Below, piece after piece: positions 35,211-59,888 of a DNA stretch of 64,000 nucleotides; position 1 is the first letter of the stretch, and each line of letters starts with the position of its first letter. The stretch comes from Sipunculus nudus (Eukaryota; Annelida; Sipuncula; Golfingiida; Sipunculidae), in the NCBI GenBank assembly GCA_026874595.1, contig CM049316.1, positions 18,375,839 through 18,439,838 on the forward strand, read 5' to 3'. A model generated the notes under the pieces. That model did no database searches. It saw only the letters and a program-made list of their open reading frames with translations, and had not been told where the DNA came from. Made by a program: the position numbers and the translations under genes.

Positions 35211-35282
35211 TCAGTGCTTGCTTGATGACTGGTTCTTTTCTATAACTAGTTTCTGATCCTGGTACATCTGTCCTATAATAAC
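35211..35282 (-). CDS. LYRM4: LYRM4 coding exon 3 (C-terminus)
   Basis: This 72-nt exon encodes 23 residues and a TGA stop. The acceptor is tttacag|gtt and it enters in phase 0. It begins VIIGQMYQ, matching the VHIGQLYS-type start of the LYRM4 C-terminal segment. It was too short to stand out as an open frame and was found by searching for the missing third exon. Confidence 0.9.
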   Translation of the reverse strand, partial: VIIGQMYQDQKLVIEKNQSSSKH

Positions 35283-38200
35283 CTGTAAAGAAAAAGATGG
35301 ATATTACAATTTTGTTTTACAGTCTAATTACAAATCAAACTTGAGTGATTTTCTTTCAAGAAATAATTTTTATTCATCTGAATGAGATGCATTTGCTTAT
35401 TAAGGCAGACATTGGATCAATTCATATTTTTTTAAATATTCAATTTCAATTTCAAATCAAAGACTTACTATGTAACTTTTAAATATGCAATTTCAAATTT
35501 TCCACTTGATGGGAAAAATGAATTCCAGTTGAATTTTTTATCAAATTCATATTTAAACTAGAATACGGGTAGTTGACAAAATCGGAGTGGAACAGGTGAA
35601 GTGAGGCATGGATTGAGCGGCAAGGGGAAACAGAGTGAGCGGTGTTGCATATTAGCATGAAAGTCTGCAGCCGAAATGTGAATGTAGGTTGCGCCACCTA
35701 CCACAAAATCCAACAAGGGACCCATGGGTCTCGGCGCTCAGCTGAAGTTTGAAATTGTTGCAAATGCAAAATAGGCAAAATATTCTATTGTGATGTTTTT
35801 CATATATATAAGCATATGAGAAGCTAAGCGGAAAGGGGCCCTCCTACTTGGTTATATTAAAGTTCTAAAAATATGATTGCAAAATTAATACTCTGACAAG
35901 ACTGTCATGAATAAAAACAGTAAAAGTTTTGAGATACTGTAATGCATATGAAAAATTTACAGATGGACAGGCAAGTGGACAGAATGGACTAATACCTTTA
36001 TTACTCTTTCAAGGGAATAATGTATTTTAATATATATAATCCTATTTTTTTAAGCATATCCACTTTTTCCATTTATAGTTTTTATTTGATTCATTTTTTT
36101 TATTTACAAGTTTTATAAATTTGTAACATAAAAATCTGAAAATATAAGATAAAATTTCAGAATTCTAAGTTGCAATCATTATATATCCAGAGTGTAGCTC
36201 ATATTGGGTCATCTTATGCATACACATATATTTTAGTATTATTAAATCACAAATGTTTAAACTGAATTTAAAAGAAAATAATGCCACAACATGGCATCTT
36301 CATGATTATCCCTTGAAACACTATTGAAAAGTTTTACACATTGAAGTTTTCAGTACATGCTTAATTTTTTTCACCAAAATAAAATAAAATATTCAATAAA
36401 TTTGATAAAATAAAATCATCTGTTCAAATAAAGTATATACATTGTTGGTTGTATGAGGGACAAAAAATATCATTGTGCTAATTATTATCTCAGCAATAAT
36501 TAATAACTGGAATTAATAGTCAATTTCACACCTGATGAAGTTTTTACTCTTCTGAAGTAAGGAATCACTTATATGATGAATATCCACACTTTCACAGCAA
36601 TACACCACTTTGTGGACACAATTAAATGTGCACTTTAATCATTATAGCTCTGGTAGTACAATACAAAATCTAAAATGTAGCATAGCCAAGAATAAAAATG
36701 AATAAAATACCAAAAAAAATATAACATTCATCTAGTTAATGCACCATCTGGGGGAACCTGGGGGGGGGGGGGGAACCTTCTAGTAGTGGCCACGCTGAGC
36801 CAAGGCAAGCTGCCTGGGGTAGGTTACATAACACAAGTGAAGGCTGTACTACTAGGTGGACTAGATGTAAACAACACTTGACATGGTGTATGAAAACCTA
36901 TATAAAAGCTAAACTTTTCAATCAATTCCTTTGAAATTTCAGATTTTAAAAGATAAAATCCTTATGTATATATACTGTGAAAATTAAATCAACCGTGCTT
37001 ACAGGGAAAAACGTGTCATTGCCAAAGTTGGACAAAATTTAGGGATTAATTTTTTATTTATGCTAATAACTTCTAAAATTTGCATAATTCAGATCTTATT
37101 TTGGATAAACAATTGAATCTTTTTTAAATAAAGTTGTATTCCTGAAAAAAAGTCTCCAGCTTCAGCAATTCTCATGTTAAGTGGGTTAATATATTTCCAA
37201 ATTTCTTTAAATTTCATTATATTTGGCCCAAATCTTCAAAACAATACGCAATACTGACCTAATTTTTGGTATGTTCATAGAAAATTTATGGAAGCATATG
37301 AATACTAAATATGATCAGTAACAGATCAGTGGTTTTGAAATTAGGCAGCCTGGAAGTGTAACAATGGCTTTTTTATGGAAAACAGAGGTTTTCATGAATA
37401 TCTCAAAGTGACCCAATTTTGGTTATGGTAGCAAATTTTAGGGACATCTAACAGTATGCTAAATTTTGGATTCATAGGTCCAATGGTTTCAAAACGTGCC
37501 CTGTTAGTGGACAGCCGGAGGACCACGACTATAGCTCAGATGACTTATTGTCAGCTGAACTAAAAAGCTGTCCAAGTTGTATACATATGCCAAATTTTAG
37601 GCAGATAAGTCAAACCACTACTGAGATATGAGTGATTTTATCCCACGGCAGACAAACAGATGGACACTGTGCAAAAATGGTTCCAGGTGGCCCCTCCAGT
37701 TTTGTTTATGATTAAGAGCTATGTGAGATCTATACACACGCAAAATTTTGGCCCAATCAGACAAACGGTTCCCGAGATATGGGCCTGGATGTCTGCAGCG
37801 TAAACTGCAGGTAGGTGGCGCCACCTGTCATAAAATCAAGAAAGCTATCCAGGATGTATAAACCTGCAAAATTTTATGCAGATATGTTAAACCACTGCTG
37901 AGATATGAGTGATTTTATCCCACGGTAGACAAACAGACGGACGCCACCAGTTTCTCGTGTGATAAAGAGCTATGTGAGATCTATACACATGCAAATTTTC
38001 AGGAAGATAAGCCAAACCAGTCTGGAGATATAAGCATGGATGTCTGCAGCGTGAACGTGAATGTAGGTGGTGCCACCTGTCATAAAATCAAGAAAGCTAT
38101 CCAGGAAGTATAAGCATGTCGAATTTCAGGTGAATTAGTCAAACCACTGCAGAGATATGAGTGAATTTAACCCAAGTGGTGAGTATGTTACATATTGATT

Positions 38201-41200
38201 ATATCTGCATAAATCATTAAGATGAAGAATACCATCTATACTTTACCTGTCTCTTTATAATCTGTAAGTTGTCCTCAGCTTGTTTTATTAAATCATTAAT
38301 TTTTGAAGGATCTGTTTCTTCCTTGTTGGTTCGAAATGTTTCCCGTATTCGCCTTACAGCATGATTTCTGGAAGAAATAACAAGAGTTATACTCATAATA
38401 ATGCAGGCATATATAATAAAGCTCACCCTCTCAGTAACTATACTTACAATGTGTAATGCAGGGTTTGCAGGTTTTACCAAACACCTGGGTGAAACTTCGA
38501 TTTTTTACCCTAAGTCCTATATTGATTAGTGATATGTATTCTGCCCAGCCAAACATGTGTGAAAAATGTTTGTAATAAATGACTTCTTTTAGACGGTGGT
38601 TATGAGGTCAAAACCACTTGGCTTGCCACCAATATTTACGGTGTAAAAAAAATGTGTATATAACTTCTGCTGATCAATCAGAAAGAAACTAAACATGGGT
38701 TCGGTTTGATACAGAAAATATGCATGGGGAAAAGCCTGGGTAATAAACTGGGTAAAACACAGGTTAAATCTGGGTATATACTTGTATCCTAGAGTTTTAA
38801 CCCCGATTTAACGAGTATTTCTGGAGCACTCAGGTTTTAGTAACATAACACCACCTTGGTTCCATTTAACATCTATATTAAAATCACTTATAGAGTCAAT
38901 AATATGCATACATGTTTGCATATTTGCAATCCTAAGAAGATCCTGTATTAGATCTGCTTTACATAAATAGCATTTTTCTTGTTGTTCTGAAGATTTCAAA
39001 ATTTAAAGCAAAATTTTCATTTACAGAAGATGGGACCATGGAATATATATCAATACAATTAGCATTAAGTATGCATATTCAATAACATCATCTAAAAATA
39101 TATACAAAAATATCTCCATATGATTTAATTGTATATTGATCATCTTTATTTCTTAAATTTTAATTTTAAATAAATTTCAAATTAACAAATGATTCTTTGT
39201 TAAAAAAAAGCCTGTAAATTCTCTATAAAATGAGTTAAAGGAAAACATATTTTCGATTACAAGTTTTCTAATGCTTGTGCAAAACTTATAAGCTGTGATG
39301 TCACTGGTGTTAATCTGTAAATATTTCAAAACATATGCAATAACCAGTGTCAGATTAACCTATAGACTCAACAGTGTGCAGAACTATTTACCTCACATTT
39401 GTTGCCTCAAGCAAAACCTAAATAAACAATGATTTTCTTTCATTTGTAACAGTAAAACTTGGGGACCTGCCTAGGTACAGTCTGTACCTTAGACCATAGT
39501 AAACTGTTTTTCTGTCTGCATAGAGGAAGAGTTTACCCTGTGGACCATGAGATGTAACCAAATATGTTCAGGCATACACGGTGGTTGCCTTTATATCGCC
39601 AGGGCTGAATTTTCGCGGTTTTTGTATTTTAATAAGTTTTGTTGGGTTCCTTTTTCACGCTCTATCATTAGTCTAGTAGTATATTTTATTTTTTTCAAAT
39701 GTGAAACTATAAACTGTAGTGACCAAATTATTTCATAAACTGCCGATTTCACTATTATCTAGGCCTACTATTTCTCTGTCCAGATATTGCATGTTCGGAC
39801 AATCAAGGACGGCTGAGCCAACATGTGTGGGAAGCATTGACCCCACGGGCTGTAATTAGTGCAGGGCCAAGGCTTAATCAAAACAAGTCACATATCATTA
39901 AAGGGACATAATCACCAGCAATATTATGCCTATTCTTTCACACTATCAGTTCAGTTTTGCTTTATATAAAAGTTTCCCAGCCACACTATCTCAGCACACA
40001 CTCTCAGTACCTTGCATACGGCTGTTTAACACCTTGTTATGGCTCTGCATGTTGGTAAACACAGTCCATGTGTGTCTGTTTACCATAACAAGGCCATGTA
40101 ACCAGAGGCTGAATTGTGAGCCACAACACACAGTTTTTCAGCCATTGAGAACATGTATTACATTGTTTTGGCCAAGTCAGTTAGTGCATCTCCTGATTGA
40201 TACGTGTCTTGGCTCTGCGATGCACACGGCCCCACTGTGTTTATGTTGACACCTGCGATCGCGCCCAATGCACTGTTTTTAACACATTTACAGGAGTAAG
40301 CAAATGGTTTCAAAGAAATATTTTGGCAGGAACCGATTTATCTTAAAGGAAAAAAGCTATTTTTTGTGTCAATTCAACATGCTTGATGGGTAATTGGGCT
40401 CCTTTAGGGTATGAGCAAATCTGCAGGGTAAACTTTCAAACTCTTTACTCCTAGAATAACAGACCATGATCTCAGGTTCAGACTTTAGAAGGTTTGGTAA
40501 CTCTCTCTTACATTCACAGCTCTCTGTCTCTCTCTCTACAGGTCTCTCTCTGCCTGACTGATACATACTGGTTCCAGTGGTTTCACTTAACATGGTTAGA
40601 TCATATCAAGTATTTCACAATTGACTTGAACTGCTAATTTCTCAAATAGCTTGAACAAACACTACTCATGTGATTAGCAGTCTGTATCCTTTAATCCCTT
40701 GAGCAAGCACACCACTTAATGAGGGGTAAACCCTGGCTCCAGTACTGACCTCTCCTTGAGCAAGCAAACCACTTAGTGAGGGGTAACCCCTGGCTCCAGT
40801 ACAGCAGCTGCCAGGATAGGCCCTGCAGGCAGTAGCACTTCCAGGTAGCCTGATATAATCAGACTCAATATTATAAGGCCCTGCCATATATTGAGTCCGA
40901 TAGCTATACAGTGAGAATTTCTACAATATCAGCCTCAGACTACACACCACCCAATGCTATGGTAACCAGTGGCAACAGGTGTTCATTACCCCGTGCCAGC
41001 GTGTCATTCTTCATGACTGGGCCCGTTGAAACAAAATGTAACAAAAGTTTAGCTGTCACTCGAGCCAGCGATGCTATCAGTGAGGTCATCAGGTGCGCCT
41101 ATTCGACTGTTCTTCTCTGTCCCTATTAAACTCGCTGACATGCCTCTGGTAAAAAGGTCAGTAAATGTTAAAAAATGATGATCCAAGTTTAATTTTAGTT

Positions 41201-41794
41201 GCTATCGGAACCATGAAACACATACTTATTGTTGTTTAAATGGTGTAATCCTGTGTCTTGTTGTTAGGCAATAAACAGGCAGTCAAAGAAGATGCAACGG
41301 ATCCGTTGCATCTTCCGTTGCTTTTATTGTAGAAACTCTCACTGTATGGCTATCGGACTCAATACAATATATAGCAGGGCCTTATTATATTGAGTCCCAT
41401 TAAATCTGGCTACACTTCGGGTACTGCTGGGCTGACCAGTATGCACTTTTCTGGAAACGTATGCATGGCTACGATAAAATTGCCTGAAAATAGTAAGAGG
41501 TTTTTGGAGCAGGAACAAAGTGGGAGCAAAATTCGACCTTTTATTTAATCAGTGTTAATAAGACTCGAGTATATGACCAGTTACTCCAGGCATGCCATGA
41601 AATGACATGTCAAATCAGTTCTCAGGTGGAATCCCAATGTGAATGTCATTCCTGTAATGTTCTTCTGTTAATAAAATCTTAACTCATTTACACTGATTAA
41701 GTGGTGTATACCTGAATCCGTAGGACGAGAACTTCTGACTCTCACGTAACATCGTCTTATACAACGAAAGCACCTTGCTCCTGGAGGCGGCCAT
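35211..41794 (-). CDS. LYRM4: LYRM4/ISD11, Fe-S cluster assembly factor (3 coding exons)
   Basis: Joined CDS on the minus strand: 41794-41712, 38367-38247, 35282-35211, 276 nt, 91 aa plus stop. LYRM4 (ISD11) is a small mitochondrial matrix LYR-family protein that stabilises the cysteine desulfurase NFS1 together with acyl carrier protein, in the first step of Fe-S cluster assembly. The sequence shows the start MAASRSKVLSLYKTMLRES, then NHAVRRIRETFRTNKEE, then a C-terminus beginning VIIGQMYQDQKLVIEK. All three segments align with human LYRM4 recalled from memory, and the length matches (91 aa). All splice sites are GT-AG; the introns are phase 2 (3344 bp) and phase 0 (2964 bp). The family LYR tripeptide reads L-Y-K at residues 11-13. 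The second intron carries element D. The gene is divergent from FARS2. I am confident in the identity; the UTR limits are not defined. Confidence 0.93.
35660..35712. repeat. GGCGCC-type repeat unit left of element D
   Basis: 'gtaggttgcgccacctaccacaaaatc' matches the units at 37811 and 38068, and the array resumes at 37564 after element D. Confidence 0.6.
35713..37563 (+). mobile_element. Element D (1.85 kb) in LYRM4 intron 2
   Basis: Head aacaagggACCCATGGGTC then GCTCAGCTGA; tail 'gctgaactaa'. It is shorter than B and C: it lacks their first ~650 bases and the second internal repeat, and the ACGG stretch is nearly lost. It has a poly-G tract at 36761-36773. It interrupts the GGCGCC tandem array, and the flanks rejoin to the array consensus. 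Confidence 0.65.
37564..38180. repeat. GGCGCC-type tandem array right of element D
   Basis: Units at about 37684, 37811, 37944 and 38068, spaced 124-133 bp, with 'gagatatgagtgattttatcccacgg' recurring at about 278-bp spacing. The array ends about 65 bases from LYRM4 exon 2. Confidence 0.7.
38247..38367 (-). CDS. LYRM4: LYRM4 coding exon 2
   Basis: This exon is 121 nt: one base that completes the Arg codon split by intron 1, then 40 codons ending in IIKRQ. The acceptor is cttccag|a and the donor is cag|gtaaag. It carries the NHAVRRIRETFR core of the LYR helical bundle and the conserved basic stretch at its end (K66-R67). Entry phase 2 and exit phase 0 fit the flanking exons exactly. Confidence 0.94.
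39898..40407. mobile_element. Miniature element M3 in LYRM4 intron 1
   Basis: It starts TTAA-AGGGACATAATCACC and ends 'GTAATTGGGCTCCTTTAG', an imperfect terminal inverted repeat of the same type as M1 and M2. It is about 510 bp. It contains an inverted pair, CCTTGTTATGG..GGTAAACACA and TGTTTACCATAACAAGG. It matches the copy at 44979-45470. Confidence 0.55.
40697..40802. repeat. 57-bp tandem duplication
   Basis: 'ccttgagcaagca' to 'ctggctccagtac' occurs twice, starting at 40697 and 40754, with a few substitutions. Confidence 0.75.
40862..41396. mobile_element. Long terminal inverted repeat element in LYRM4 intron 1
   Basis: The left arm 40862-40928 (gactcaatattataaggccc ... ctacaata) and right arm 41325-41396 are reverse complements with few differences; one 5-bp insertion occurs in the right arm. 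Similarity continues weakly outward (GTAGCC..GAT). It is about 535 bp and non-coding, and contains a perfect 28-bp palindrome at 41288-41315. The family is not recognised. Confidence 0.65.
41712..41794 (-). CDS. LYRM4: LYRM4 coding exon 1
   Basis: This exon holds 27 codons plus two bases of an Arg codon, reading from ATG at 41794. The ATG context is strong (A at -3, G at +4). The donor is CAG|gtatac. An upstream ATG 8 nt 5' of this start is in another frame and has a weak context. The encoded N-terminus MAASRSKVLSLYKTM identifies the gene and decides the start. Confidence 0.92.
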
Positions 41795-42100
41795 GCTGAC
41801 ATTTGTTTACCTCTATCAAAAACGATCTTCCACTTCCGGTTTTCGGATAAACTCTCCTTTGCCCTTATGTATGGAGACAATATTCCAAAAATGATCTCTT
41901 AATACTTCTGATTATATTTTCTGAGTATTCCACCCAGGAAAACTGAGCTTTTAAGACAAACGGGGCTACAATGGAAATGCACTTAACCAGGCTACCTCCA
42001 ACACACAAGAGCCTGTCCAAGGGCATTGGGGGTTTCCAGCGTGCAACACTGGCATGCCAATTAGAGACACGATAAAGGGTAAAAATATGATTATGCATTG
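41795..42100. promoter_or_regulatory. LYRM4 promoter, possibly shared with FARS2
   Basis: This segment lies immediately 5' of the LYRM4 start, on the side facing FARS2. It contains CACTTCCGGT at 41831-41840 (ACCGGAAGTG on the LYRM4 strand), a good ETS/GABP (NRF-2) site and a common driver of TATA-less promoters of mitochondrial-protein genes. No TATA box is obvious near it. In human the LYRM4 and FARS2 genes start close together in opposite directions. Here the first FARS2 coding exon is 4.1 kb away, but its upstream acceptor-like sequence suggests a non-coding first exon that could begin in this interval. That exon was not located. Confidence 0.5.
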
Positions 42101-43267
42101 TATCTTAAAAGAGTAACGAAATTTTTAAACTGGAATCATTGGATGTGTCGTGTCATTGATATTATTATTCAATCAGGGGCTGTAGTAATATTTTGAGCGA
42201 TAATAGGGGTTTTGTGTTTATTGTAATGAGAAATATGACATAACTTATGATACAGTTTAGAAAATATTTATTTTTTAGGAAACTCAAAATGAATGGTGCT
42301 GTTGAAATACAAATATTAAAATAAACTGTATTTTTTTGGTATTCCGTCATCCAAATTTGTGTTCAACTGGAACACAGAACTGAGTGTTAACAGTACAATT
42401 GCCTTGTATTGGAGCAATTGGGACACACCAACTCCAAAAAATGAAAAATTTTTTTTTATTTTCCATTTTTTTTAACATTAATAAAATGATTTATTTTCAT
42501 TTTTCTCACATTTGTTTATATCATTCACCATCTGTTTTGTCCACTTGCATCTGTTATCTTTTTACTAGATATATCAACATGGTCTAAAACACTAATATCC
42601 TTGTTGGCAGTGCTGCCAGGTCTTTAATTGGTTCACTGCCAGGTCCTTAATTGGTTTATATAGCCAACTTACTCACTAAAGGGATTAATTGGTGTGGCCA
42701 GCAAAGTGCCCAGGGGCTGACCAATTAATTAATGGGGCATTAATTGCTATACCCCGGTACACTCATATATAGTGTCCTAGATGGCAGTGTTCTGGTCGGC
42801 AGGTAATGAATTATTTTTAACTTTATGACAAAAATGATGTGGTTTGTTTAGGGGCATTAAAATAATCCAAGTTTTTTATAATGATTTAAGCATCAGAGCA
42901 ATTAATTCCTAATAATATGTTCACTTTGATTTTACCTGTTACTAAGATTTTAACTTCCACATGTGACATGTTCCTCTGCCTTGATATGAGCCTGGTACCT
43001 TCAATTTTTGTAGTCCAATATCTTTTCTACATCCTTTCAACTACCTAGAAAGAAACAAAGCAGGACTTGACATTATTTTACAAAGTATATTAATACATCC
43101 CAAATCAGACAGGTAAATTTAACATCTAGCTTTTACTTTTCATACATGTATTTTTACCTGCCCTACAAAAATCAGTGATGAAGCCATTAACCAATTGTGT
43201 CCCACCTGATTGTGTCCCACCTGATTGTATCCCACAAGAATGTGTTGTGCTGCATTTTAGACAATAA

Positions 43268-44387
43268 ATTTTATCAGCTGAGCTATATTGATTGGTCATT
43301 GTCTTTCTGTCTGTCAGTTAGACTTGCAAGTTTTGACACAGTTGAATCTACAAATCTGATTTTTTGCATATATATAATTAGATGTCCCTTAGCACCTATC
43401 AAACCCAAAATAAGGCCACTGCGACTTCTTCAAAGTTTCTTTGGGAAATTAAGCAAAAACCTAGTTTTCATAAAAGAACTGTTGTAACACTTCAGGACTG
43501 CCTACTTTCAAACCATTTGTGTTATTTTGTTCATATTTTGGTGTGTATGGTCCTCAATCTGTTTCCTATGGACATGTCAGAAATTAGGTCAATATTGCAT
43601 AAGTTATAGAAGTTACGTACCTGAACATAATGTACTTTGTCAAAACATCAGGAAATATATTTACGCACCTTTCATGGTGATGGATAAAGCTAGAGTTGTT
43701 TTTAAGCATATAACTATATAATTTAGATTTAATTGTATATCAGATAAGATTTTTGTTAATTGGTTAACATTTCATTTGTATCTTTTAATGTTGGTTAGAC
43801 CTTGTTATAAATAACTCTGGTACACTCAATCAGGTATATTTGGCAAACTTTAACAGGATTTAATGTTAAGCTCACATGGCCATATATTGAACTATTGAGA
43901 AATTAATAACATTTACACATTTTTTTAGATGTATCCTTTCATATAACACTTAGGCCCATACTATTTTCCCTATTGCATCATTAAATGATTTCAGGCAACA
44001 ATTTTTCATATATTACAGTGTGCAGATGCAATGTATACCTAACTGGCTTATTTTAACATGCTAATCAAATTTAGTTTATGCTCAGTTGAAGTTGGAAAAT
44101 TTTAATTTTTGACAGTATTTAATTTTTAGTTAATAAATTAAATGTGTATTATCATACTTGAGCTCATGTCCATTATTCTGTAACTAACAGGGTTTCTAAA
44201 GTTCCAAGTGGATATATTTACATGTTTATTACAGTCACTTAGTTGAAGTACTTAAACTTTTACAAATTTATATGTGATCATGAGAGTGTAGTCCATAATA
44301 GTTCACAGTCAACACAACCACTAGGATTTTATACATATTATCTCAGAATTCATTTCAGCTGAGTGCCATGACCCTCATGTTCCTTGT
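43268..44387 (-). mobile_element. Decayed element of the A-G family (E2)
   Basis: On the minus strand the head reads acaaggaacatgagggtcat then ggcACTCAGCTGA. The other end (near 43275) retains cagctgagctata and tggtcattgtc. The interior 'gatgtccc.tag..ctaccaaa' resembles the tail half of the others. It is much more diverged than B or C, hence an old copy. It lies in the interval between LYRM4 and FARS2. Confidence 0.5.
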
Positions 44388-44822
44388 TAGCATACCGGTA
44401 GCTTTCAGGAATGCATGGTAAGGGTCTATGATGCTCATATTTTCCTACAGAAACGAGGTTCTGAGGGTGTTGAGTGTTTATCAGACTCATAAATTATATC
44501 TAAATGTAGGATCTAAAGTATAAATGTGAAAGCTGGGTTTTGTGTCCATGACTGACCACTGCAGACTAAAACCAACTGTGCAAACATTGTGGGAGCAACT
44601 GAGAGCTGACCCTTATGTTTCATATAATCAAAAAAATATTATGATGACAATAAATTGATATATTCAGTTATATAATGATCCATTAATGATGTTAAATACT
44701 TTAAGAAATTATTCTAGTTTACATTAATTACACATCAAAATTTGACATAGATCCACTCCCCCTGGGGTGCACTTAAATCCCATTTGACCCTCCAAAATTT
44801 TGACCTATGCATCCCGGACTCT

Positions 44823-44868
44823 TTATTAATACAGGGCTTTCTTCTTATTAAAAGCCCTGTATTAATAA
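44823..44868. repeat. Perfect 18-bp inverted repeat, 10-nt loop
   Basis: TTATTAATACAGGGCTTT (44823-44840) pairs perfectly with 44851-44868, leaving a 10-base loop. It lies upstream of FARS2 coding exon 1; no RNA family was recognised. Confidence 0.85.
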
Positions 44869-44978
44869 TATTTTTCTCATGTATTTGTACAGGTTATAAA
44901 CAGGTTATTTAAAATAAAGAGGTATTGTCGATATTATTTCATTTCTCCAAGAAAAAAAAATTGCTAACTGACGATCAG

Positions 44979-45470
44979 TAAAAGGGACATAATGAGGAGC
45001 AATATTATGCCTATTCTTTCACACTATCAGTTCAGCTTTAATCAAAAGTTTCCCAGCAAAACCACCCCAGCACACAGTCTCAGTACCTCTTATATGGCTG
45101 TTTAACTCCTTGTTATAGGTCTGTGTGTGGTAAACACAGTCCATGTGTGCTGTTTACCATAACAAGGCCAAATGACCAGAGGTCCAGTTGTGAGCCTTAA
45201 CAAGCGGTGTTTCAGCCAACGGGAACATGTATTACATATTTTGGGTTAAGTCGGGGCATCTCCTGATTGATGTGTTGTGGCTGGGCGATGCACGGGCTGT
45301 GTTTATGTTGACACCTTTGATCGTGCCTGGTCCACTGTTTTTAACACTTATTTACAGGAGTAAGCAAATGATTTGAGGACAATATTTTTGCTGGTACAAA
45401 TTTATGTTAAAGAGAAGTGTCTGTTTTTTGTGTTAATTCAACATGCTTTATAGGTGATTCAGGCCTTTGG
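44979..45470. mobile_element. Miniature element M4 upstream of FARS2 exon 1
   Basis: About 490 bp similar to 39898-40407 over its length: 'aaagggacataat', 'gcaatattatgcctattc', the CCTTGTTAT..ATAACAAGG inverted pair and 'ttaattcaacatgctt'. Its ends have decayed more than those of M3. Confidence 0.55.
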
Positions 45471-45914
45471 GAAAAGGTTTATTTAGTACTACCTATCATT
45501 CAGGAAAGTAGGAACTGACTTTTGGTTGCCCTACCAAAATTTCCTGGAACTTTTACCATCCCCAGTTTATGTTGGGCCATGCTAAGCACACCAATGTCCC
45601 ATCTTCCAATTTTAAATTTCAATAATAATCAGTCAATCAGTACTTTGTTTTTGTCACTGGTTTTTGCAGAGTATATTTTCATTGTCACCAGGGTGAAAAA
45701 TATTCCAAAAGCTTATAGATGGCTAGAACTGAATTGATAGTGGTTTATAGTAAGAGCATATTTTAAACATAAGAATATATTGCATATTGTTATAACTGGT
45801 TCTTATGTTTATTTGAGACTTTGTCAAATTTTTAACATGATTGCAGACTGATCTTTATTAATGTCATTGCATTTACATAATAATTTTGCTTGTTTCTTTT
45901 GAAGGTTATAAAGA

Positions 45915-46514: not shown

Positions 46515-49500
46515 GTAGGTAATTTTTAAGTTGATTTTCTAGTCATCTGTACATTACTGTGGCTGAATGTTTTGTTAAATGATGACCAATGGTAAAATGT
46601 TGATAAGTGACCAGAAAGACAATTCATCATTTCATTCAATATTCTCAAAAGGTTGATTATCCCTCGTAACAAAGTTGCAGGAGGGGATATATTAACACCT
46701 CCCATCCTGCAACTGTCTGTCCGTCCCTCCGGAATCACCTTCTGGACTGAATTTTAGCTCAGCTGACTATAAGTCATCTGAGCTATAGTCGTGGTCCATT
46801 GTCCGTCGTCCGTCTGTCTGTCGTGCCGTCTGTCCGTCCGTAAGACTGGCACGTTTCGACACCATTGGACCTACGAATCTGAAATTCGCCATACAGTTAG
46901 ATGTCCCCAAAATCTCCTACCATGCCGAAAAATGGGTCAATAGGACTTCGTTCCTTGAGATATTAAGGAAAAACCTCAATTTTTTATTAGAAATCTATTT
47001 TCACACTTCAGGACTGCCTAATATCAAAACCACTTGTCTGGTTTTCTTCATATTTACCATAAATAATGCTCTATATAATTCCTATGTACATGCCAGAAAT
47101 TAAGTCAGTATTATTTAATTTAAAAAAAAGTTATGGGCCCAAACATAATGGACTTTGTAAAAAAATCAGGAAAGATATTTGGTTACTTAAGATCAAAAGT
47201 GTTAAAGGTAGGGACTTTTTTTCAGTAATACAACTTTAATTGATCAAAATTTAATTGTATATAAAAAATTAGATCAAAATCTGTTAAATTTTTTTAAATA
47301 TTGGCAAAAATGTAAAATTGGTACCTTAAATTTTGTCAAAGTTTGACCATGGCATGTTTTTTTCCTGTAAGTACTGTGGATTTAATTTTCACAGCATATT
47401 TTTGGAGGCATTTTGTCTGGTAACACAAAAAATTTGAAACCAGTTGACCAAAAACTGTTGATTTTATTCAAGTTTTCAAGCACCATGTCACATCAAGTTT
47501 ACATCAAGCTAGTGTTATGCAGTTTGCTAGAGCTCAGCTCCCCAGCTTCAGCTCTAAGTTCCTTAAATTTAGCATACAGTTAGATGTCTCCAAAATCCCC
47601 TACCATGCCAAGAATTTGATCACTAGGACTTAATTCCTTCATAATATTAATGAAAAACTTCATTTTTCCATTAAAAACCCATTGTTCCACTGTAAGACTG
47701 CCTAATATCAAAACCACTGATCTGACTTTGATCATATATAACATACATATTTTTCTATACATTCGCTATGCACAGATACTTTCAAAATGTATTAATGAAT
47801 GCATTCATAAATATCTTCTATAATATTATTTCAATAATCATTTCAGTTATATTTTAAAATCATATGATTTTCTTATTTTTTTTTAATAAAAATTATATTG
47901 GCACAATATTTGTTATTTAATTTTAATAAATAGATAAACTCTTTTATTATATGTGCTGCTTATAAGTTATATGGCCAAGTCAAAATCTGTGTGACAATAG
48001 CACTCCATTTGTTAATAAAATAAATGATATAAATCCTCTTCCCTGTCTCCAAAGATACTATCAAAATCATACATAAGCTAAACACCAACAACTCATAATA
48101 AAGCTTATATTTATTACCACACAAAACAAGCATGTGCCTCTTTCCCAAATCATATTTTTTATCATATATAACAGCTGAGCGCCGTGACCCCTGGGTCCCT
48201 TGTTTAGCAAAACTATTCGACAAACTATATCTTTCACATATGGCTCACATACCCACAGATGAACACCCTGTTGATTTTTAGGTCACAGGGTCAAATGTCA
48301 AGGCCGTGGGACCCACTTCTTGAAAAAGCTTATGGACCCATTTAAGCCAAACCATTTGAACAAAACCTTTAGTCTTTCTCATATGGCTTACCCACCCATA
48401 GGTTAAATCCCTTTTGTTTTTGTGGAAACAAATGAGTTAATATGTTAATATGAGTGCATCACATGTAAAATATAATATGAAAAATTCATCTTATTTATAA
48501 AATTTGATAATCTACTGGAAAGCTTATTTCATTAAGTGCTTTTGATTAGGATTGTAATAGCTTTCATTGGCTGGATTTTAACTTATTTGTGTATTTACAG
48601 ATATTCAGCAAAGTGAATGATCCAACTGATCTAACAATATTTGAGGCCGGCCAGCGAAGGGATGACAAACAAGAATGTCACACGTTAGAAGCTGCTAAAC
48701 TTGTAGAACACGACCTGAAGGCAGCCCTCGTTAAAATGACTCAGGTCATCTTTGGTTCAGGTAGGCAGTGTCCTCTGCTCAAGTCAGCGGGATTATTTGA
48801 ATTAAGAATTATTTGTATGATTTAGTTTTAAGGATGGCAGCTTTAAGGATGAAGAAAATGTGTAAAGGTATGAAAATACTCTGAGTGGATTTTCACTTTG
48901 TGATTTGCAAGGGTTTAATTTTTGTTATCACATAGGATACTGTACAAAAACTTATATACAGTGTACATGTTACTATGATAATTGAATAATTAATAAGTAC
49001 AAAATCTTATAAGATGAGAACTGAACAATTCTTGTTCGTTATTGGTACTCTATGGAATATAATATAAAAGATCAGATTTATTAATAATTTCAGTCTCTAC
49101 TTTACAGGTACAAACATAAAAGATCTCTTGTTATCTAATATATCAACCTTTTATTTTCAACTTTGTGTACCAGATATTTTTATCACCTGCAGATGTCGAG
49201 TACCGATGGGTGGACTGTTACTTCCCATTCACACATCCTTCGTGGGAGCTGGAGATCATGTACGAGGGGGAGTGGCTGGAGGTACTCGGCTGTGGTGTGA
49301 TTGAGCAGCGACTGCTCAATAACGGTGAGTACTCCTGTGGATCAGTGATAATACAATGATCACACAGTCTTAAATGTTTTAGCAATTTAAAGGTAAGAGT
49401 ATAAGTACTCATATTACTGTTGCGGGATTTACAACGACACCTGTGACTGTTGTGATAAGGCTTTATTGTATTCACAACTCCATTTTGATGAGAGGCTCTC

Positions 49501-52500
49501 AATACAGTTGAACCAATTACAGCCCACAAGGTGGCTGGCACCTGTACAAAAACACAAAAATAGCTGCATCAACTTTGTTCTAGTTCACATGAGACACATG
49601 TGAATATCTTATCAAGTGAGGCTTACTACAATAAAAAAAAAACTAATACACATAATGAACTCACTGGTTCATGAATAACCCATGTTTACGGTGTTACTCG
49701 TTACATCTACCACAGTATCGGCATAAGAGATGATCAATGGTTACACTACTTCCAGACAGTCTCTAAGTATGAGCCTCAAGGCATAGCCATTCCAAAGTAA
49801 AACCTAATGACCTCAATGACTACATTCTCATAAAAGAAAAGGTCTATCAATATAACACTTACTAACATGCATTATGCTATAAAATGTATAAAATGCTATA
49901 AAAGGTGGTTTACCCAACATATCAAAACAGACAGCTCATGGAACGTGTTACAAAAAAAATATCATTTAATGGAATAAACAATATGCTCAAAGCATCACAG
50001 AGTCATGACGGAAATATCTTATTAATGATCTATTTTCATGACATAAATGTCCTAATGAACAGTAATATTAAAAGTAATGTTGGCTTACCATGTCTCAGTG
50101 TCATTAAACTAGTTGTAATTCATGATATGTGAAGTTGTGTATCAAACAGATGGGCTCGACATGTGTAATACTATTATACTACTGAGACTGGCAGATGGTC
50201 ACTATACACGTATTATCAATGCCATGGTAATAGCAGTTAAAGGAGTTAAACAATTTAGGCTTAATAGACACTTGTACTCCTTATAAAATGAGCAACAAAT
50301 ACAATATAATGCTGTTAAGTCCGTATTAATTGTGCAGTGATTTACACAAGGGTGTACATGCTGTTGCAGACTGATTTACAAAAATAAATTAATTGAAAAA
50401 GCCCACACTGTGATACTGTTATTGTCTTGTAGCAAACCCTAACACAATCACAAAATGTTTCTTCCACAACATTTCTCATAAGTATTTTCATAAATGAACT
50501 TACCACCTATTCACATGTTTGTGCTTGAATAAGATCTATTTCAAAGCCAGTTTAACTCAATCATAATACAGTTAACTACAGGCCCAACAAGCAATGACAA
50601 ATTTCCTCATAATTTTGTAAACACAGCATCCACGACATGCACAACATCTACCCCTGTAGATGGCATCCCATGTCATCAGCCTCCACACAACTCTGACTTT
50701 TAGAGCACTTCGTAATGAGACGGTCCCTGCGTACAATTTACACAATATTGAGTACAGACTGCTAGTTCTAATAACAAACTATGAAACCAATACCTGTAAT
50801 ACATCTGTAGGCAACTATAAATATCATTCATAACCTGTCAGGTGTCTGTCACATCGGCCACCGTTGGAAACACTCTCCCGCATATAGCAGTGACTAGTAC
50901 AAGTAAAAGTGACAGCCGGCAATCAAGCCGTCTTGTCACATTACTTTATTTTTGGTGTATTTGAGCAGCTTTGGAATATATCTACAATACACACTAAAGG
51001 TTTATACTATGAGTATAGATATGATATATATGGCACAACATGGTAGTAAGTGTGCCCCTTAATATATTGTTTTCCTAATTATTCACTTAAGATAAGTTTA
51101 TTAACTGTGATGTTTGCCCAATTTCCCTCAACAAAACTGCCCAAGACCTATGATAAGCTTAAAGGGGCCCAATCAGCTATCTGACCTTTATAAACTTAAA
51201 GTAATCCTGTAGAGCTTTTAAAATAATAGGCCAGAAAACGTAGATATTATCGCACGCAGGCTGCTTGTTTTGTTTATAATATGTGGGGGCCCGCAAAATT
51301 ATAAAAAAAAAAGGGACCCATGGGTCACGGCGCTCAGCTGATCATGATTGGACTATAAATGTTTCTCCACTGTGATACTATATCGAGTCGAAAAAGCTTA
51401 TGAATAGAATGGACATGTTGGGCTATTATAAAGGAATGTAATGTAATATGTGAGTAAATGATAAATGAAATTACCTGACTTATGGATTAATAGAGTAAAA
51501 TATAGTGGTTTATTTTTAGCTCAGCTGACTATAAGTCATCTGAGCTATAGTCGTGGTCCTTTGTCCGTCGTCCGTCCGGCCATCCGTCCGTTAACAGGGC
51601 ACGTTTTAAAACCGTTGGACCTACGAATCCAAAATTCTGCATACCAATAGATGTCCCCAAAATCTCCTACCATACCAAAAATTGGGTCATTAGGACTTTG
51701 TTCCTTTGAGATATTAAGGAAAAACCTCTGTTTTCCATAAAAAAGCCATTGTTACACTTCAAAGCTGTCTAATATCAAAACCACTGATCTGTTTTTGATC
51801 ATATTTAGTATTCATATTTTTCCATGCATTTTCTGTGCACATACCAAAAATTAGGTTTGTATTGGGTATTATTTTGAAGTTATGGGCCCAAATATAATGC
51901 AGTTTCTTAAAAATCAGGAAATATGTTTGCTCACTTAACATGAGAATTGCTGAGGCTGGAGACTTTTTTTCAGGAATATAACTTTATTTAATCAAGATTC
52001 AATTGTTAACCCAAAATTAGATCTGAATTTTGCAAATTTTTCAAGTTATTAGCATAAATAAAAAATCAGTACCTTAAATTTTGTCCAACTTTGGCAATGG
52101 CACATTTTTTCCCTGTAAGCACTGTTGATTTAATTTTCACAGCATATATACATAAGGATTTAATCTTTTAAAATCTGAAATTTCAAAGGAATTGTTTGAA
52201 AAGAGTAGCTTTTATTCAAGTTTTCATACACCATGTCAAGTGTTGTTTACATCTGGCCCACCTAGTAATACAGTCTTCACTTGCATTATGTAACCCACCC
52301 CAGGCAGCTTGCCTTGGCTTTGCTTTGCCACTACTAGCAGGCTTCCTCTCTGCTTTGCACTCCCCCCCCCCCCCCCAGCTGGTGCATAAACTAGATGAAT
52401 GTTATAATGTTCTGTATTTTATTTTATTTTTGGCTATGCTACATTTTAGATTTTGTATTGTACCACCAGGGTTACAATGATTAAAGTGCACATTTAATTG

Positions 52501-53038
52501 TGTCCACAAATTGATGTATTGCTATGAAAGTGTGGATGTTCATCAGAGTGCTCATGGTTGTATCAGTTGTTACATGATACTGGCTAAATAATCAAAATTT
52601 ATATTGCTGATCCTTTATTTCAGTTCATAAAATTAAACATTCCCAACTCCAATTTGCTCCTGGTATAATATATTGGGTGTTATGATCCTTGGATTAATTT
52701 TAACACATGTATTAGTTTCATAGTTGAGAATACTTTTCTTTTTTCCTGATACCATTTAAAAAAATAAAAATATTTAAATTTTTCCTGTTAGTGCTGTGGA
52801 TTTAATTTTCACAGCATGTACAAATTAGCATTTCATCTGTTAAAATCTGAAATTTGAAACTAATTGATCAAAAACTGTAGATTTTATTCAAGTTTCCAGG
52901 TACCAAGTCTTCATTGTTTACATCAGGTCAGTATAAATGCAGTGTACTGGGCAGTTACATAACACCTTCAGGTCTGACCTACTGCCACTGTGAGTGTCTG
53001 GGTCAGGCTGGGTCAGGCAGTAATTACCAGAGAGCCTC

Positions 53039-53073
<35 letters not shown>

Positions 53074-53081
53074 GGCAGTCC

Positions 53082-53125
<44 letters not shown>

Positions 53126-53139
53126 CTTTCTCTCTTTCT

Positions 53140-53196
<57 letters not shown>

Positions 53197-56100
53197 CCTT
53201 ATTGCCTCCCTTCCTCCCTCCATCCCATTCTGTTGACAGGTACTATAAACTAGATGCATTAGCTATAAATGTTGATGCAATTTAGAAATGTGAATCAACT
53301 GAAATATTCACAATCACATGTATGTTATACTGTAAATTTATAGTAACTTTCGTAAACCTGGATAAAAATTGTGATGAAAAGAAGGAATAAATGCAAATAT
53401 TGTTAATTTTTTATTGGCTTAGTAGAATGGGGAAAAAAATGATTTGCTTTGTTTCTCCATCTTTCTGTCTGTTTTAAATATTTAATGTTCATGAATAAAC
53501 TTTTTTTTATAAGCACTGTTGAATTAAATTTCATATCCTGTATGTATATTGTAACTCTCACCATCCCCTTCTTCATCCCACTGAGGCTTTGCTCCTTGGC
53601 ACTGTGAACAATAGTTCTATGGCTATAGCATAAAATTTAATAATTAAAGAAAATATCTGCAGAGAGACAGAGGCATTGTAACTCTGATCATAACACAACA
53701 CCCCCCCCCCCCCCCATCAAGTCATCGCACCTGTGGAATGGGGACGTTATGGCAACTGTATACCTATCATAAAATTGATAAAATAGGTTTACCAAATAAA
53801 TTGGATCTCATCAGACAAATGTGTAAACTGTTGAACTGTCAACAGCTTATCAAAAATGTAACCAATGGAAAGGCATGGTCAGATCTCAAATATTATTTGC
53901 AACATTTTCTTCAATCATATAAACCAACCATGGCCAAAATTACCTCTTCCTCTCAAACTTTATCTACATTTCATCATATTTTTAATATTTTAACCTTCTA
54001 GGTGGTTCAGTAATGTTGACCATTTGTCCATAGGTACCTATGTACATGCCAGAAATTATGTCAATATTGTGTAATATGTAGACGTGAGGGTCATCAAAAT
54101 AATGTACCTTGTCAAGACCTATCTTGTCAAGATATCATGTCATACAGTCACAAATTCATAAATCCCCTCATCAGCATAGTTAATCATAACCTTGTATCTG
54201 TCAAATTGAAAGCTTGCAGTTTTCCATACACTATAGATCCTTCAACAAATAGCCTTATCATCATTATACCACTGCTTAGTATACTGTCATTGCATTCATA
54301 TTTGCTCAAATAAATTGTTTTTTTTTCGACCCCTCCCAAATAAATAAAAAATAAACCACTATATTTTACTCCATATTAATCCATCAGTCAGATTATTTCA
54401 TATATCATTTACTCTCATATTACATTATATTCCTTTATAAAAGCCCAACATGACCATGATATTCATAAGCTTTTTCTACTCAATATAGTATAACAATGGT
54501 GATACATTTATAGTCCAATCATGATCAGCTGAGCGCCGTGACCCATGGGTCCCTTGTTTTATTATTTAGGAGGGGTTGAAAATTGTGATATATTTGAGCA
54601 AATATGAATGCAATGACAGCAGTAATAAGCAGTAGTAGAATGATGATACGGCTATTTGTTGAAGGATCTAAAGTGTATGGTAGTCTGCAAGCTTTCAATT
54701 TGACAGATATGATGTTATGATTAACTATGCTGATGAAGTGATTTATGAATTTTTGACTGTATGACACAATAACTCTTTAGTCTTGACAAGGTACATTATT
54801 GTGATGCCCACTATGTCTACATATTACACAATATTGACATAATTTCTGGCATGTACATTTGTACCTATGGACGAATAGTTATACAAAATATTAAAGTTTG
54901 AATATATCTGATTCATCTTGTTCTTGCTTACTGAGGCTGACTTTGGGATGGGGTCGGAGAAGGGAAAAGTGAGGGCAGCACGAAGGTGGATGTAGAAATA
55001 TTCTATTGTAATGTTTTTCATTTTTATAAGAATATGAAAAGCTAAAAGGGAAAGGGGCCCTCCTACTTGGTTATAGTAAAGTTCTAAATATATGATTGCA
55101 AACTAATACTCTGACAAGACTGTCATGAAGAAAAACAGTAAAAATTTTGAGATACTGTGATGCATATGAAAATTTACAGATGGACAGGCAGTGGACAGAA
55201 TGGACTAATACCTTTATTTCACTTTCAAGGGAATAATTCATTTAAGTTTATATATAAGCCTATTTTTTTAGCATATCCACTTTTTCCATTAAGAAGTTTT
55301 TATCTGAATAATTTATTTTTTACTTACAGGTTTTATAAATTTTTAATAAAAAAACTGAAAATATAAGTTAAAATATTAGAATTGTTGCAAAAGTTGTAAT
55401 CATTATATATACAGAGTAAAAAAACTGAAACTATAAGTTAAAATATTAGAATTGTTGCAAAAGTTGCAATCATTATATATCCAGAGTGTAGCTCATATTG
55501 GGTCATATTATGCATACACATATATTTTATTATTTTTAAATCATAAAAAGTTAAACTGAATTTAAAAGAAAATAATGCCACAACATGGCATCTACAAGAA
55601 TATTCCTTGAATCACTATTAGAAAGTTTTGCACATTGGAGTTTTCAGTACATGCTTAATTTTATTCACCAAAATAAAATAATAGATTCAGTAAATTTGAT
55701 AAAATAAAACATCTTTCAAATAAAGTATACACACTGTTGGTTGAATGAGGGACAAACAATATCATTGTGCTAATTACTATCCCAGTTTTAATTTATTACT
55801 GGAATTAATAGTCAATTTCACACCTGGTGAAGTTTTTACTCTTCTGAAGTAAGGAATTACTTATCTGATGAACATCCACACTTTCATAGCAATACACCAC
55901 TTTGTGGACACAATTAAATGTACACTTTAATCATTGTAACCCTGGTGGTACAATACAAAATCTAAAATGTAGCATAGCCTAGAATAAGAATGAATCAAAT
56001 ACAGAAAATAATAACGTTCATCTGGTTTATGCACCATCTGGAGGGGGGGGGGGGGAGTTCAGGGCAGAGGGGAAGCCTGCTGGTAGTGGCCAAGCTGAAC

Positions 56101-59100
56101 CAAGGCAAGCTGCCTGGGGTGGGTTACTTAATGCAAGTGAAGGCTGTACTACTAGGTGGGCTAGGTTGTTTACTTGACATGGTGTATGAATGAAAACGTG
56201 AATAAAATCTATTCTTTCCAATCAATTTCTTTGAAATTTCAGATTTTAAAAGATTAAATCCTTATGTATATATGCTGTGAAAATTAAATCAACAGTGCTT
56301 ACAGGGAAAAAACGTGCCATTGCCAAAGTTGGACAAAATTTAAGGTATTGATTTTTTATTTATGCTCATAACTTGAAAAATTTGCAAAATTCAGATCTAA
56401 TTTTGGGTAAACAATTGAATCTTGATTAAATAAAGTTATATTCCTGAAAAAAAGTCTCTAGGTACAGCAATTCTCATGTTAGGTGAGTAAATATATATCC
56501 TGATTTTATAAAAATTGCATTTTATTTTGGCCCATAACTTCAAAATAATACCCAATACTGACCTAATTTTTGGTATGTTCATAGAAAATGTATGAAAGAA
56601 TGTGAATACTAAATATGATCAAAAACAGATCAGTGGTTTTGATATTAGGCAGCCTTGAAGTTACCAATGGCTTTTTTTTATGGAAAACGGAGGTTTTTTC
56701 CTTAATATCTTGTAGGAACGAAGTCCTAATGACCCAATTTTCGGTATAGTAGGAGATTTTGGGGACATCCAACATAATGCCAACAGCCTGGGGAGCAGAG
56801 AGATGTGCACTGAATGTCCTACAGTCATCAAAGTGGACTGCTTGACAATGTAAGGGAATACAACAAGAGCCTCCAAAAAAATTCAATAACTAGCCTAATT
56901 CTGCAACTTGTATTTTCAAATTTCAGATTTTAACAGATTAAATCCTTATGTGTACATGCTGTGAAAATTAAGTCCACAGTACTTACAGGAAAAAAAAGTG
57001 ACATGGCCAAAGTTGGGCAAAATTTAAGGTACCAATTTTATATTTTTGCCAGTATTTAAAAATATTTAACAGATTTTGATCTAATTTTTGGTATACAATT
57101 CAATTTTGATTAATTAAAGTTGTATTACTGAAAAAAAGTCCCTACCTTTAACACTTTTGGTCTTAAGTGACCAATTATCTTTCCTGATATTTTTACAAAG
57201 TCCATTATGTTTGGGCCTATAACTTTTTTAAATGAAATAATACTGACTTAATTTCTGGCATGTACATAGGAACTATATAGAGGAATATTTATGGTAAATA
57301 TGAAGAAAACTAGATGAGTGGTTTTGATATTAGCCAGTCCTAAAGTGTAAAAATAGTTTTCTAATAAAAAATTGAGTTTTTTCCTTAATATCTCAAAGGA
57401 ACGAAGTCCTATTGACCCAATTTTCGGCATGGTAGGAGATATTGGGGACATCCAACTGTATGCCGAATTTCAGATTTGTAGGTCCAATGGTGTCGAAACG
57501 TGATGGACAGACGGACGGACGGACAGACAGACGGGCGGACGACAGACAATGGACCACGAGTACAGCTCAGATGACTTATAGTCAGCTGAGCTAAAAATTC
57601 AACAAGGGTGTCTGGCAGCAGGTTCAGAGCTTGCAAATGGCGTTTTGCAACAAGTGACCTTACTACCTCAGCATATATTCAACCGACCACCTTAGGTTAC
57701 ATGTTTTTCCCCATTTGTCAATATTGCTGTGTTTACAAACATGTTGTTGACTGATAAACAAGTTCATACATCCTTTACGAAAGCGTTATTAAAATTTTTC
57801 ACAACCAAAATTACCCTGAGATCATTAAAATAAACACAGAGGAAGACAGAAATCACATACATTCTTTTTCAAAAGGTAGGTGATTGGGCACCTTTAACGA
57901 TTGGTAAAAATATGATAAAATATAACCTGGTAGATCTATGAAGATTTCCTTGGAAGTTTATAAACCTTTGGGTTGTAATATAATGTTAATATAAAATATT
58001 TTTATCTTCCTTAATGCTGGTGTGATGGTGCTCCAATCATGTCATTGTGTATTCATGTACCGAGTATGTATGACTGTGTTGCCCAACATTTGAAGAAGAT
58101 AAATCTAGTTGGGTAAAGATTTACTAACACACAAAGTGGTCATGAATCCCTTGAGATCTAACAAATAATCCCTTTGCCCAAAGAGGCCCCTGGTGCTCAA
58201 CTGGCCAAATAATGCACGGGTGTGGTTTGTCTGTATGTCTGATGCAAGTAATCTGTTGTTTACAAACACAGCAATACCTCAGGATCAGCTGCATCATGGC
58301 TCATACAAACCCACCTGAAAACAACAAAATAGCCGTTGAAAATGACAACATATTATACTGAAGCCCCTTATCCTGTTTTCATACCAGGTTATAGAAATAG
58401 CATTCAGGTTGAACTGTCATGACTAATATTTCAGATACAAAGTGTACTAGAGGATATGAACTAAATAAGATGAGAAAACATGCACATGATGGGTAAAGCT
58501 GATTTTTATGCAATAAGAGAGAATGCTTCTTTAACTCAAATCCTAAATCACATTTACACTAGTAAATTTTACACAAGGTAGGTCTCTACAACATCTCAGT
58601 CCTCTTATATGATACAGATCTGGAAACTCAGTGCTTGAATTTAAGGGGTAATGAACAAATTTAAATTCTAGTTCCTTCTTCACTCTCCAGATGGCATCAG
58701 AGGGATGGTCTGCAGTATCTGTCTTTTATTAAACTTGTTCCATTACCCAACCAGTCTCACTGCTGATAATAATATAAGGGTTGTCTCATATGGAGCTGTT
58801 TCATTCTTAAGCTGGTGCCAACAACAAGGTGGGCTGGGCATTTGGTCTTGGTTTGGATCGACTGGCGATGCGTCTGTACAACATCCCAGATATCCGGGTG
58901 TTCTGGAGTGAAGATTCAGGAGTATTGAACCAGTTCAAGGTGAAAAACCCAGATACACCAATCCAGTATAAGGTGAGTCAGAGAAGATAATCACTCATAT
59001 ATTTTGTATTTATAGTATAATTTTTCTGATAAAAAAAAAAAGTACAGTACAGCTGTAAGTTTACACTGGCACACCATCACATTGTGTTACGAAATCTAGC

Positions 59101-59752
59101 ATCATATACCGATCATCTGGTGCATCTGTATGGATACATCTAAATATATGATCATCTGATGGAAACTGATATCTGACATTTAGGAATGGTGTCTTGACTG
59201 CCTTCTAAGGAAAGTTAAGGGAAATGCCATTGTGCAAAAATGATCAGCATCTGATCAGCAAATTAAACCAAAGAAAGAGCTGCTCATATGAGGTTCAGTA
59301 AGATGATTTGTAATAATAAATGTCTTCAAGACACAAAAAAGAAATTTTGATTTTAAGTTTGTCAGCTCAAACGTAGTGTATTTAGTTGAACAATCTGTAT
59401 TATTTTCCTTTACTTATATTTAACGGTGTATATAAATGTTATGTTTGTATTTTTTTGTGTTTTTCAGGCTGTCAGCAAGTTCCCATCTTGTGTAAATGAT
59501 ATCTCATTCTGGATCACAGAGAAGTTCACTCCTAATGACTTCTATGACCTGGTGCGGGAAGTAGCAGGAGATGTCGTAGAAACAGTTAAACTTATTGACG
59601 AGTTTGTTCATCCAAAACACGGGAAAACAAGTCACTGTTACCAGATAGTGTACAGACATATGGATAAGACATTTACACAGGAAGAGGTTAATGAGATTCA
59701 TAAAAAGGTCGAGAGGTCAGCAAGTGAGAAACTCAGTGTGGAGGTCAGGTGA
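45915..59752 (+). CDS. FARS2: FARS2, mitochondrial phenylalanyl-tRNA synthetase (5 coding exons)
   Basis: Joined CDS: 45915-46514, 48601-48760, 49193-49324, 58812-58972, 59468-59752, 1338 nt, 445 aa. The enzyme is monomeric and charges mitochondrial tRNA-Phe with phenylalanine in the matrix. Residues 1 to about 45 are basic and Ser/Thr-rich, as in a mitochondrial targeting peptide. TSAHQ (152-156) and DVYRRDEID (172-180, class II motif 2 with its Arg and Glu) are followed by FHQMEG (187-192). [13 protein letters not shown] and EVLGCGV appear in exon 3, and motif 3 GLGLDRLAM is at 309-317. Residues from about 352 to the end, including NDISFW, form the FDX-ACB anticodon-binding domain. Human FARS2 is 451 aa (from memory), so the length fits. 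All introns are GT-AG with phases 0, 1, 1, 0. A second in-frame ATG lies at 45924. The gene is divergent from LYRM4. Confidence 0.96.
46754..48203 (-). mobile_element. Element E (1.45 kb) in FARS2 intron 1
   Basis: Reverse orientation. It begins TTAGCTCAGCTGACTATAAG with a CCGT microsatellite (about 46800-46845) and ends CAGCTGAGCGCCGTGACCCC then TGGGTCCCTTGT. Two direct core units are recognisable and the head half is mostly missing. It lies wholly within the intron, clear of both splice sites. Sequence at 48204-48420 resembles the interior of 4370-4690. Confidence 0.65.
48601..48760 (+). CDS. FARS2: FARS2 coding exon 2
   Basis: 160 nt, entering in phase 0 and leaving in phase 1, with acceptor gtatttacag|ata and donor ttcag|gtaggc. 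It encodes [14 protein letters not shown] through the [17 protein letters not shown] helix, which matches the family segment between motif 2 and the RWVDCYFPF block. Confidence 0.94.
49193..49324 (+). CDS. FARS2: FARS2 coding exon 3
   Basis: 132 nt, phase 1 to phase 1, with acceptor cacctgcag|atg and donor aacg|gtgagt. It encodes [19 protein letters not shown], then [19 protein letters not shown], the most conserved part of the phenylalanine-binding catalytic core. Confidence 0.95.
49417..51158. other. FARS2 intron 3, left part, nothing recognised
   Basis: Intron sequence between exon 3 and the nested elements. It is of mixed composition, without long open frames or a repeat that I could match elsewhere in the window. 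Confidence 0.6.
53036..53193. repeat. (CT)n microsatellite inside element G
   Basis: Long CT/TCTC tract interrupted by short non-repeat words; the counterpart of the GA tract of element A. Ser-Leu and Arg-Glu open frames here are composition artefacts. Confidence 0.9.
54137..54313 (+). other. Small open frame in element G (58 codons)
   Basis: Starts MSYSHKFIN and ends in HSYLLK before TAA, like the frame in element A. Coding status is unproven. Confidence 0.2.
54560..54767 (-). other. Small open frame in element F
   Basis: Starts [18 protein letters not shown] and keeps the hydrophobic helix of the B and C frames. Its original 3' end now runs on into element G because G inserted there. Coding status is unproven. 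Confidence 0.2.
57898..58811. other. FARS2 intron 3, right part, nothing recognised
   Basis: AT-rich intron sequence leading to the exon 4 acceptor. No repeat family, RNA gene or extra exon was recognised. Confidence 0.6.
58812..58972 (+). CDS. FARS2: FARS2 coding exon 4
   Basis: 161 nt, phase 1 to phase 0, with acceptor cattcttaag|ctg and donor tataag|gtgagt. The split codon resolves to Ala, giving [20 protein letters not shown], which contains motif 3 (Gly-Leu-Gly-Leu-Asp-Arg) for ATP binding. In-frame stops upstream show that the open frame begins at this acceptor. Confidence 0.93.
59468..59752 (+). CDS. FARS2: FARS2 coding exon 5 (FDX-ACB domain)
   Basis: 285 nt including the TGA stop, acceptor gtttttcag|gct, phase 0. 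It encodes 94 residues of the ferredoxin-fold anticodon-binding domain: [22 protein letters not shown] and HKTSHCY-like [15 protein letters not shown], typical of the FARS2 C-terminus. Confidence 0.95.
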   Translation, partial: AVSKFPSCVNDISFWITEKFTPNDFYDLVREVAGDVVETVKLIDEFVHPKHGKTSHCYQIVYRHMDKTFTQEEVNEIHKKVERSASEKLSVEVR

Positions 59753-59882
59753 CCTTTGACCTCCAAAGGTGTGCCTTATAATATACAACAGTTACTGTTT
59801 AACATGAACTGAAAGCTTAAATGTTTAACACACTGGATACTAGAGCAGAAACTGATATGCTGTATTCAATATGGACTTTTTC

Positions 59883-59888
59883 AATAAA
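59883..59888 (+). terminator. FARS2 polyadenylation signal candidate
   Basis: AATAAA, 131 bases after the FARS2 stop. A second AATAAA follows at 59984-59989. Either would give a short 3'UTR. Cleavage sites cannot be read from DNA alone. Confidence 0.55.

Follow-up and report, generated by a model that had tools for sequence, protein, structure and literature searches.

The LYRM4 and FARS2 genes

A 64,000-nucleotide stretch of the Sipunculus nudus genome (assembly GCA_026874595.1, contig CM049316.1, positions 18,375,839 to 18,439,838 of the forward strand; hereafter the window, with positions counted from its first letter) contains LYRM4 on the minus strand and FARS2 on the plus strand as adjacent, divergent, intact genes, with 4120 bp separating their start codons. 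The pairing and the orientation are genuine, as is the human counterpart, and one FARS2 intron occupies the same position as in human. LYRM4/ISD11 is a partner of the cysteine desulfurase NFS1 in iron-sulfur (Fe-S) cluster assembly, and FARS2 is the mitochondrial phenylalanyl-tRNA synthetase. We favor, with about even confidence, the reading that the two genes were inherited as a head-to-head pair and share a single bidirectional promoter that has retained CpG. The original prediction had described two complete mitochondrial genes in head-to-head orientation, LYRM4 minus and FARS2 plus, and the gene models together with family and structure matches bear this out on both strands, “complete” referring to the coding regions; its outer limits, 35211 and 59752, coincide exactly with the ends of the stop codons in the two models.

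LYRM4 was modeled as an intact three-exon gene of 91 residues running from 41794 to 35211. Coding exon 1 (41712–41794, with its ATG at 41794 and a GT donor) aligns with the LYRM4 N terminus in both the Pfam and the structure matches, while exon 2 (38247–38367) and exon 3 (35211–35282, including the stop codon) are supported by the gene model and by the match to solved LYRM4. The Complex1_LYR domain (PF05347) spans residues 7 to 63 of 91 (E 5e-22, Pfam). In comparison with solved structures, 5usr_B gave the best match (E 6.9e-25), and all four distinct sequences with E ≤0.001 were LYRM4; other LYR proteins were not nearer among solved structures, and on sequence similarity the gene is assigned to LYRM4 itself.

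FARS2 is an intact plus-strand gene (45915–59752) of five coding exons and 445 residues, the coding part of which spans 13.8 kb. Its first coding exon (45905–46514, coding from 45915 to 46514) follows an acceptor AG at 45903–45904 and offers in-frame ATGs at 45915, 45924 and 45948. Coding exons 2 (48601–48760) and 5 (59468–59752, including the stop codon) are supported by the gene model and the match to the solved enzyme, and exons 3 (49193–49324) and 4 (58812–58972) meet at a junction corresponding to human c.904 (3′ end of exon 3) and c.905 (5′ end of exon 4). Both the class II core (PF01409) and the FDX-ACB domain (PF03147) were detected by Pfam in this single chain, the NCBIfam model pheS_mito (TIGR00469) was matched at 453.2 bits (cut-off 258.35), and 3cmq_A, a solved structure of the mitochondrial enzyme, was matched with E 5.5e-169. 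The N terminus is basic and rich in Ser and Thr, resembling a presequence as judged by eye.

All six introns across the two genes have GT-AG ends, the frames are open over all exons, and the window contains no N. FARS2 intron 3, mapped through 3cmq_A, falls within the codon of human Ala302 in phase 1, which is the human c.904/905 junction; this comparison with human covers one position of the four FARS2 coding introns. The mapping uses a chain-to-human residue offset of 36, which we take to be correct and which agrees with T156, D325 and P361, each counted on the printed alignment. In the human gene, a splice acceptor is placed at c.905-1 (PMC5023942) and exons 2 to 4 end at c.904 (PMC10154595). 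Three coding exons lie 5′ of this point in both species, whereas the totals differ: human FARS2 has seven exons with coding sequence in exons 2 to 7, hence six coding exons (PMC9258231), compared with five here. Retrocopies and pseudogenes were rejected on these grounds and a misassembly is likewise disfavored, the original prediction having itself raised retrocopies and misassembly: with six canonical introns, open frames, the intron at the human junction and phase and a window free of N, and with no supporting evidence found, we consider such an origin of the two genes extremely improbable.

The human pair and common descent

The original prediction had also held that human LYRM4 and FARS2 are adjacent and divergent on 6p25, and published deletions uphold this indirectly. 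An 88 kb deletion at 6p25.1 cuts into both genes and takes away the promoter of FARS2 together with its untranslated exon 1, the deleted part of LYRM4 being described as its “3′ exons” (PMC3898479). A second deletion, reported second-hand, removes FARS2 exons 1 and 2 and LYRM4 exon 1, with Alu repeats present in intron 2 of the former gene and intron 1 of the latter (PMC10154595, PMC11572740). From breakpoints in these two introns we infer that the human 5′ ends face each other, as they do here. On cattle chromosome 23, the genomic windows with LYRM4 and with FARS2 are 0.3 Mb apart (PMC8764764).

Just one nonhuman locus has been seen as sequence, which leaves some room for the pair having formed separately in two lineages rather than by common descent. 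By our own estimate, however, a given pair among approximately 20,000 genes would become adjacent in the right orientation by chance with a probability on the order of 1 in 10,000 or lower, and we regard independent formation as very unlikely.

Deeply conserved divergent pairs are of an already known kind (PMC2871058; PMC8851819 for blocks), and the pair described here is plausibly a new example. HSPD1-HSPE1, likewise divergent genes for mitochondrial proteins, is listed as a conserved pair with a human gap of 49 bp (PMC2871058), as compared to an ATG-to-ATG gap of 4120 bp for LYRM4-FARS2. A survey of 49 animal genomes inferred that the bilaterian ancestor gained 256 microsyntenic blocks, of which 93% are kept in lophotrochozoans (PMC8851819). 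Local gene order is kept across bilaterians in those blocks, much as it is between human and this animal for LYRM4-FARS2, although the blocks are larger (three or more genes are mentioned) than a pair. Among papers naming both genes, represented mostly by titles and the starts of abstracts, the gene order of LYRM4 and FARS2 was not found as a topic; literature searches returned no paper combining LYRM4 with “bidirectional promoter”, nor C6orf149 with FARS2, and neither gene is named in the main text of PMC2871058 and PMC12672016.

The high retention of bilaterian-ancestor blocks is compatible with an ancient LYRM4-FARS2 adjacency kept passively, without selected shared regulation and under either promoter arrangement, and the gap between the genes carries repeat-family matches (43300–43750 and 44981–45459). 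The Drosophila homologues, bcn92 and PheRS-m, lie on different chromosomes, which also fits passive retention. Against it, LYRM4 and FARS2 are both mitochondrial, and in metazoa and fungi a functional relation is more frequent among conserved divergent pairs than among poorly conserved ones (PMC2871058). On balance, passive retention is a serious possibility to which we give somewhat less than even weight.

The intergenic region and a candidate shared promoter

Under the favored reading, one bidirectional promoter at about 41.8–42.4 kb, with an ETS/GABP-type site, would drive both genes. LYRM4 transcription would start directly at coding exon 1, and FARS2 would begin with an untranslated first exon, joined by splicing across some 3 kb to the acceptor at 45904. 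Such a promoter is plausible because a CpG-retaining segment bearing an ETS-type motif covers the LYRM4 5′ end and an acceptor lies just before the FARS2 ATG. A hidden gene was not found between the two: none of 20 gap open reading frames (ORFs) scanned matched Pfam. Of the 24 ORFs that overlap the gap and reach 48 residues or more, the scan took in all but the FARS2 exon and three ORFs that extend across LYRM4 exon 1.

CpG observed/expected ratios (CpG o/e) across the window form a mosaic: in the 1-kb bins that start at 3001 and 9001 the ratio is about 1, and in several others, among them those starting at 20001, 21001, 26001, 29001, 30001 and 34001, it is below 0.15. Once repeats and coding exons were masked, CpG o/e was 0.30 over 35283–40999, 0.61 over 41000–42399, 0.10 over 42400–45914 and 0.29 over 46515–59467. 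The segment 41000–42399, the limits of which were set by eye from the CpG profile, lies over LYRM4 exon 1 and is the candidate shared promoter. Across 202 windows placed between the gene ends, each of 1228 masked bases, the maximum of 0.62 was reached at 40981–42380, and the 153 windows wholly outside 41000–42399 had values of at most 0.46. In 600-bp windows the top value was 0.71 at 41011–41610, and the FARS2 side (41811–42410) gave 0.55. The CpG-depleted stretch that follows (42400–45904, plus strand; CpG o/e 0.10) is a putative intron of the FARS2 5′ untranslated region. In oyster, methylation climbs sharply past the start site and remains high through the gene body (PMC4378273); if this animal is like oyster, the depletion at 42.4–45.9 kb would resemble the inside of a transcribed gene, namely FARS2 intron 1. 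This analogy is only suggestive, because the left flank, in which no gene was found, has CpG-poor bins as well.

The motif ACCGGAAGTG, which we take to be an ETS/GABP-type site, is located on the minus strand at 41831–41840, 36 bp upstream of the LYRM4 ATG. Its exact form occurs once in 64 kb, where 0.02 matches are expected, and two of 100 shuffles reach one match. In human head-to-head pairs, GABP is described as essential to transcription in both directions (PMC4089025). On the FARS2 side, the acceptor ending at 45904 lies 10 nt before the first ATG and 19 nt before the second. Its pyrimidine content equals that of the best of the six confirmed acceptors; its −3 base is the weaker A, as compared to C in five of those six, and it is one of 18 among 3488 plus-strand AG sites that score equally well. 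Human FARS2 exon 1 is likewise untranslated (PMC3898479, PMC9258231). A human cDNA deletion of exons 2 to 4 comprises 925 nt and ends at c.904 (PMC10154595), so human exon 2 seems to start 21 nt before the ATG, compared with 10 nt before the first ATG and 19 nt before the second here.

Several observations weigh against the shared promoter. ACCGGAAGTG was spotted before any count was made, and allowing one mismatch yields no enrichment (10 matches versus 6.1 expected; seven of 100 shuffles have at least 10). In 600-bp windows the CpG peak does not stand alone, with 0.59 at 50711–51310 and 0.57 at 35311–35910, and short windows therefore fail to single out 41000–42399. CpG retention is also frequent outside genes: 71% of 396 left-flank windows reach 0.608, which makes depletion the more informative state. 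No plus-strand donor scoring at least 0.5 was found for FARS2 exon 1 in 41800–42690; the nearest fair donor, at 42802 (score 4.02), is outside the CpG-retaining segment, and another lies at 44417 (5.33). Donors scoring 0.5 to 5 were listed for 41800–43000 and not for 43000–45890, and the score is a weak guide, because one confirmed LYRM4 donor reaches just 0.65. Finally, the 4.1 kb between the ATGs exceeds the usual 1 kb limit for bidirectional pairs, unless an untranslated FARS2 exon exists.

The same distance and the lack of an exon 1 donor in the CpG-retaining segment are consistent with two separate promoters, one for LYRM4 at about 41.8 kb and one for FARS2 at about 45.8 kb, immediately before its first coding exon. 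An in-frame stop just upstream of the first FARS2 ATG agrees with this arrangement, since coding then needs no upstream exon. The well-formed acceptor 10 nt before that ATG and the untranslated exon 1 of the human gene argue otherwise, as does the local composition: CpG o/e in 400-bp windows was 0.00 (from 45401), 0.22 (from 45601) and 0.39 (from 45801, including coding-exon sequence), and exact ACCGGAAGTG, counted over the whole window, was not found near 45.8 kb. Separate promoters are a real possibility, if one that falls short of probable.

The original prediction had proposed selection on a shared regulatory region. The shared region stands in part: the CpG-retaining, ETS-bearing segment and the FARS2 acceptor accord with it, whereas the donor that FARS2 exon 1 would need was not found in the segment. 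The selection itself is conjectural, and ancestral adjacencies commonly survive passively. The further proposal, that an ETS/GABP-type bidirectional promoter and an untranslated FARS2 exon 1 have been kept since the common ancestor with vertebrates, coupling Fe-S assembly to mitochondrial translation, is tentative, and we lean toward doubting it. Should the pair and its promoter prove to be of such age, LYRM4-FARS2 would join deep head-to-head mitochondrial pairs such as HSPD1-HSPE1, and human deletions over the shared 5′ region may hit both genes by way of an ancestral arrangement. Whether gene order is preserved by shared promoters can be tested cleanly on this pair; otherwise, the result is an ordinary annotation of two housekeeping genes.

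Flanking sequence and FARS2-like loci elsewhere

Neighboring genes were sought in the flanks (1–35000 and 59600–64000), where none of 116 ORFs matched Pfam. These represent 116 of 129 ORFs of at least 60 residues, 13 having been dropped as low-complexity or tandem-repeat sequence; shorter exons escape such a scan, and ORFs within LYRM4 and FARS2 introns fell outside it. No Rfam family reached its gathering score in the window, and ARAGORN reported no tRNA. About 40% of the window consists of sequence that recurs elsewhere in it. Open stretches at 19363–19932 (minus strand) and 53648–54310 (plus strand, within FARS2 intron 3) appear similar by eye in opposite orientation and are probably copies of one dispersed mobile element. 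A tandem array at 5534–6453, composed mainly of 77-bp units, is open in several minus-strand frames.

A search with LYRM4 found no match in contigs filed as viral, and one with FARS2 returned 17 loci in such contigs and 16 in bacterial genome contigs. The bacteria named for these loci are presumably Bacteroidota genera. Eight of the 33 loci, encoding FARS2-like single-chain proteins, were scanned. Four of the five viral ones pass the pheS_mito cut-off, and all three bacterial ones pass both this cut-off and that of the model “PheS-related mystery ligase SrmL”.

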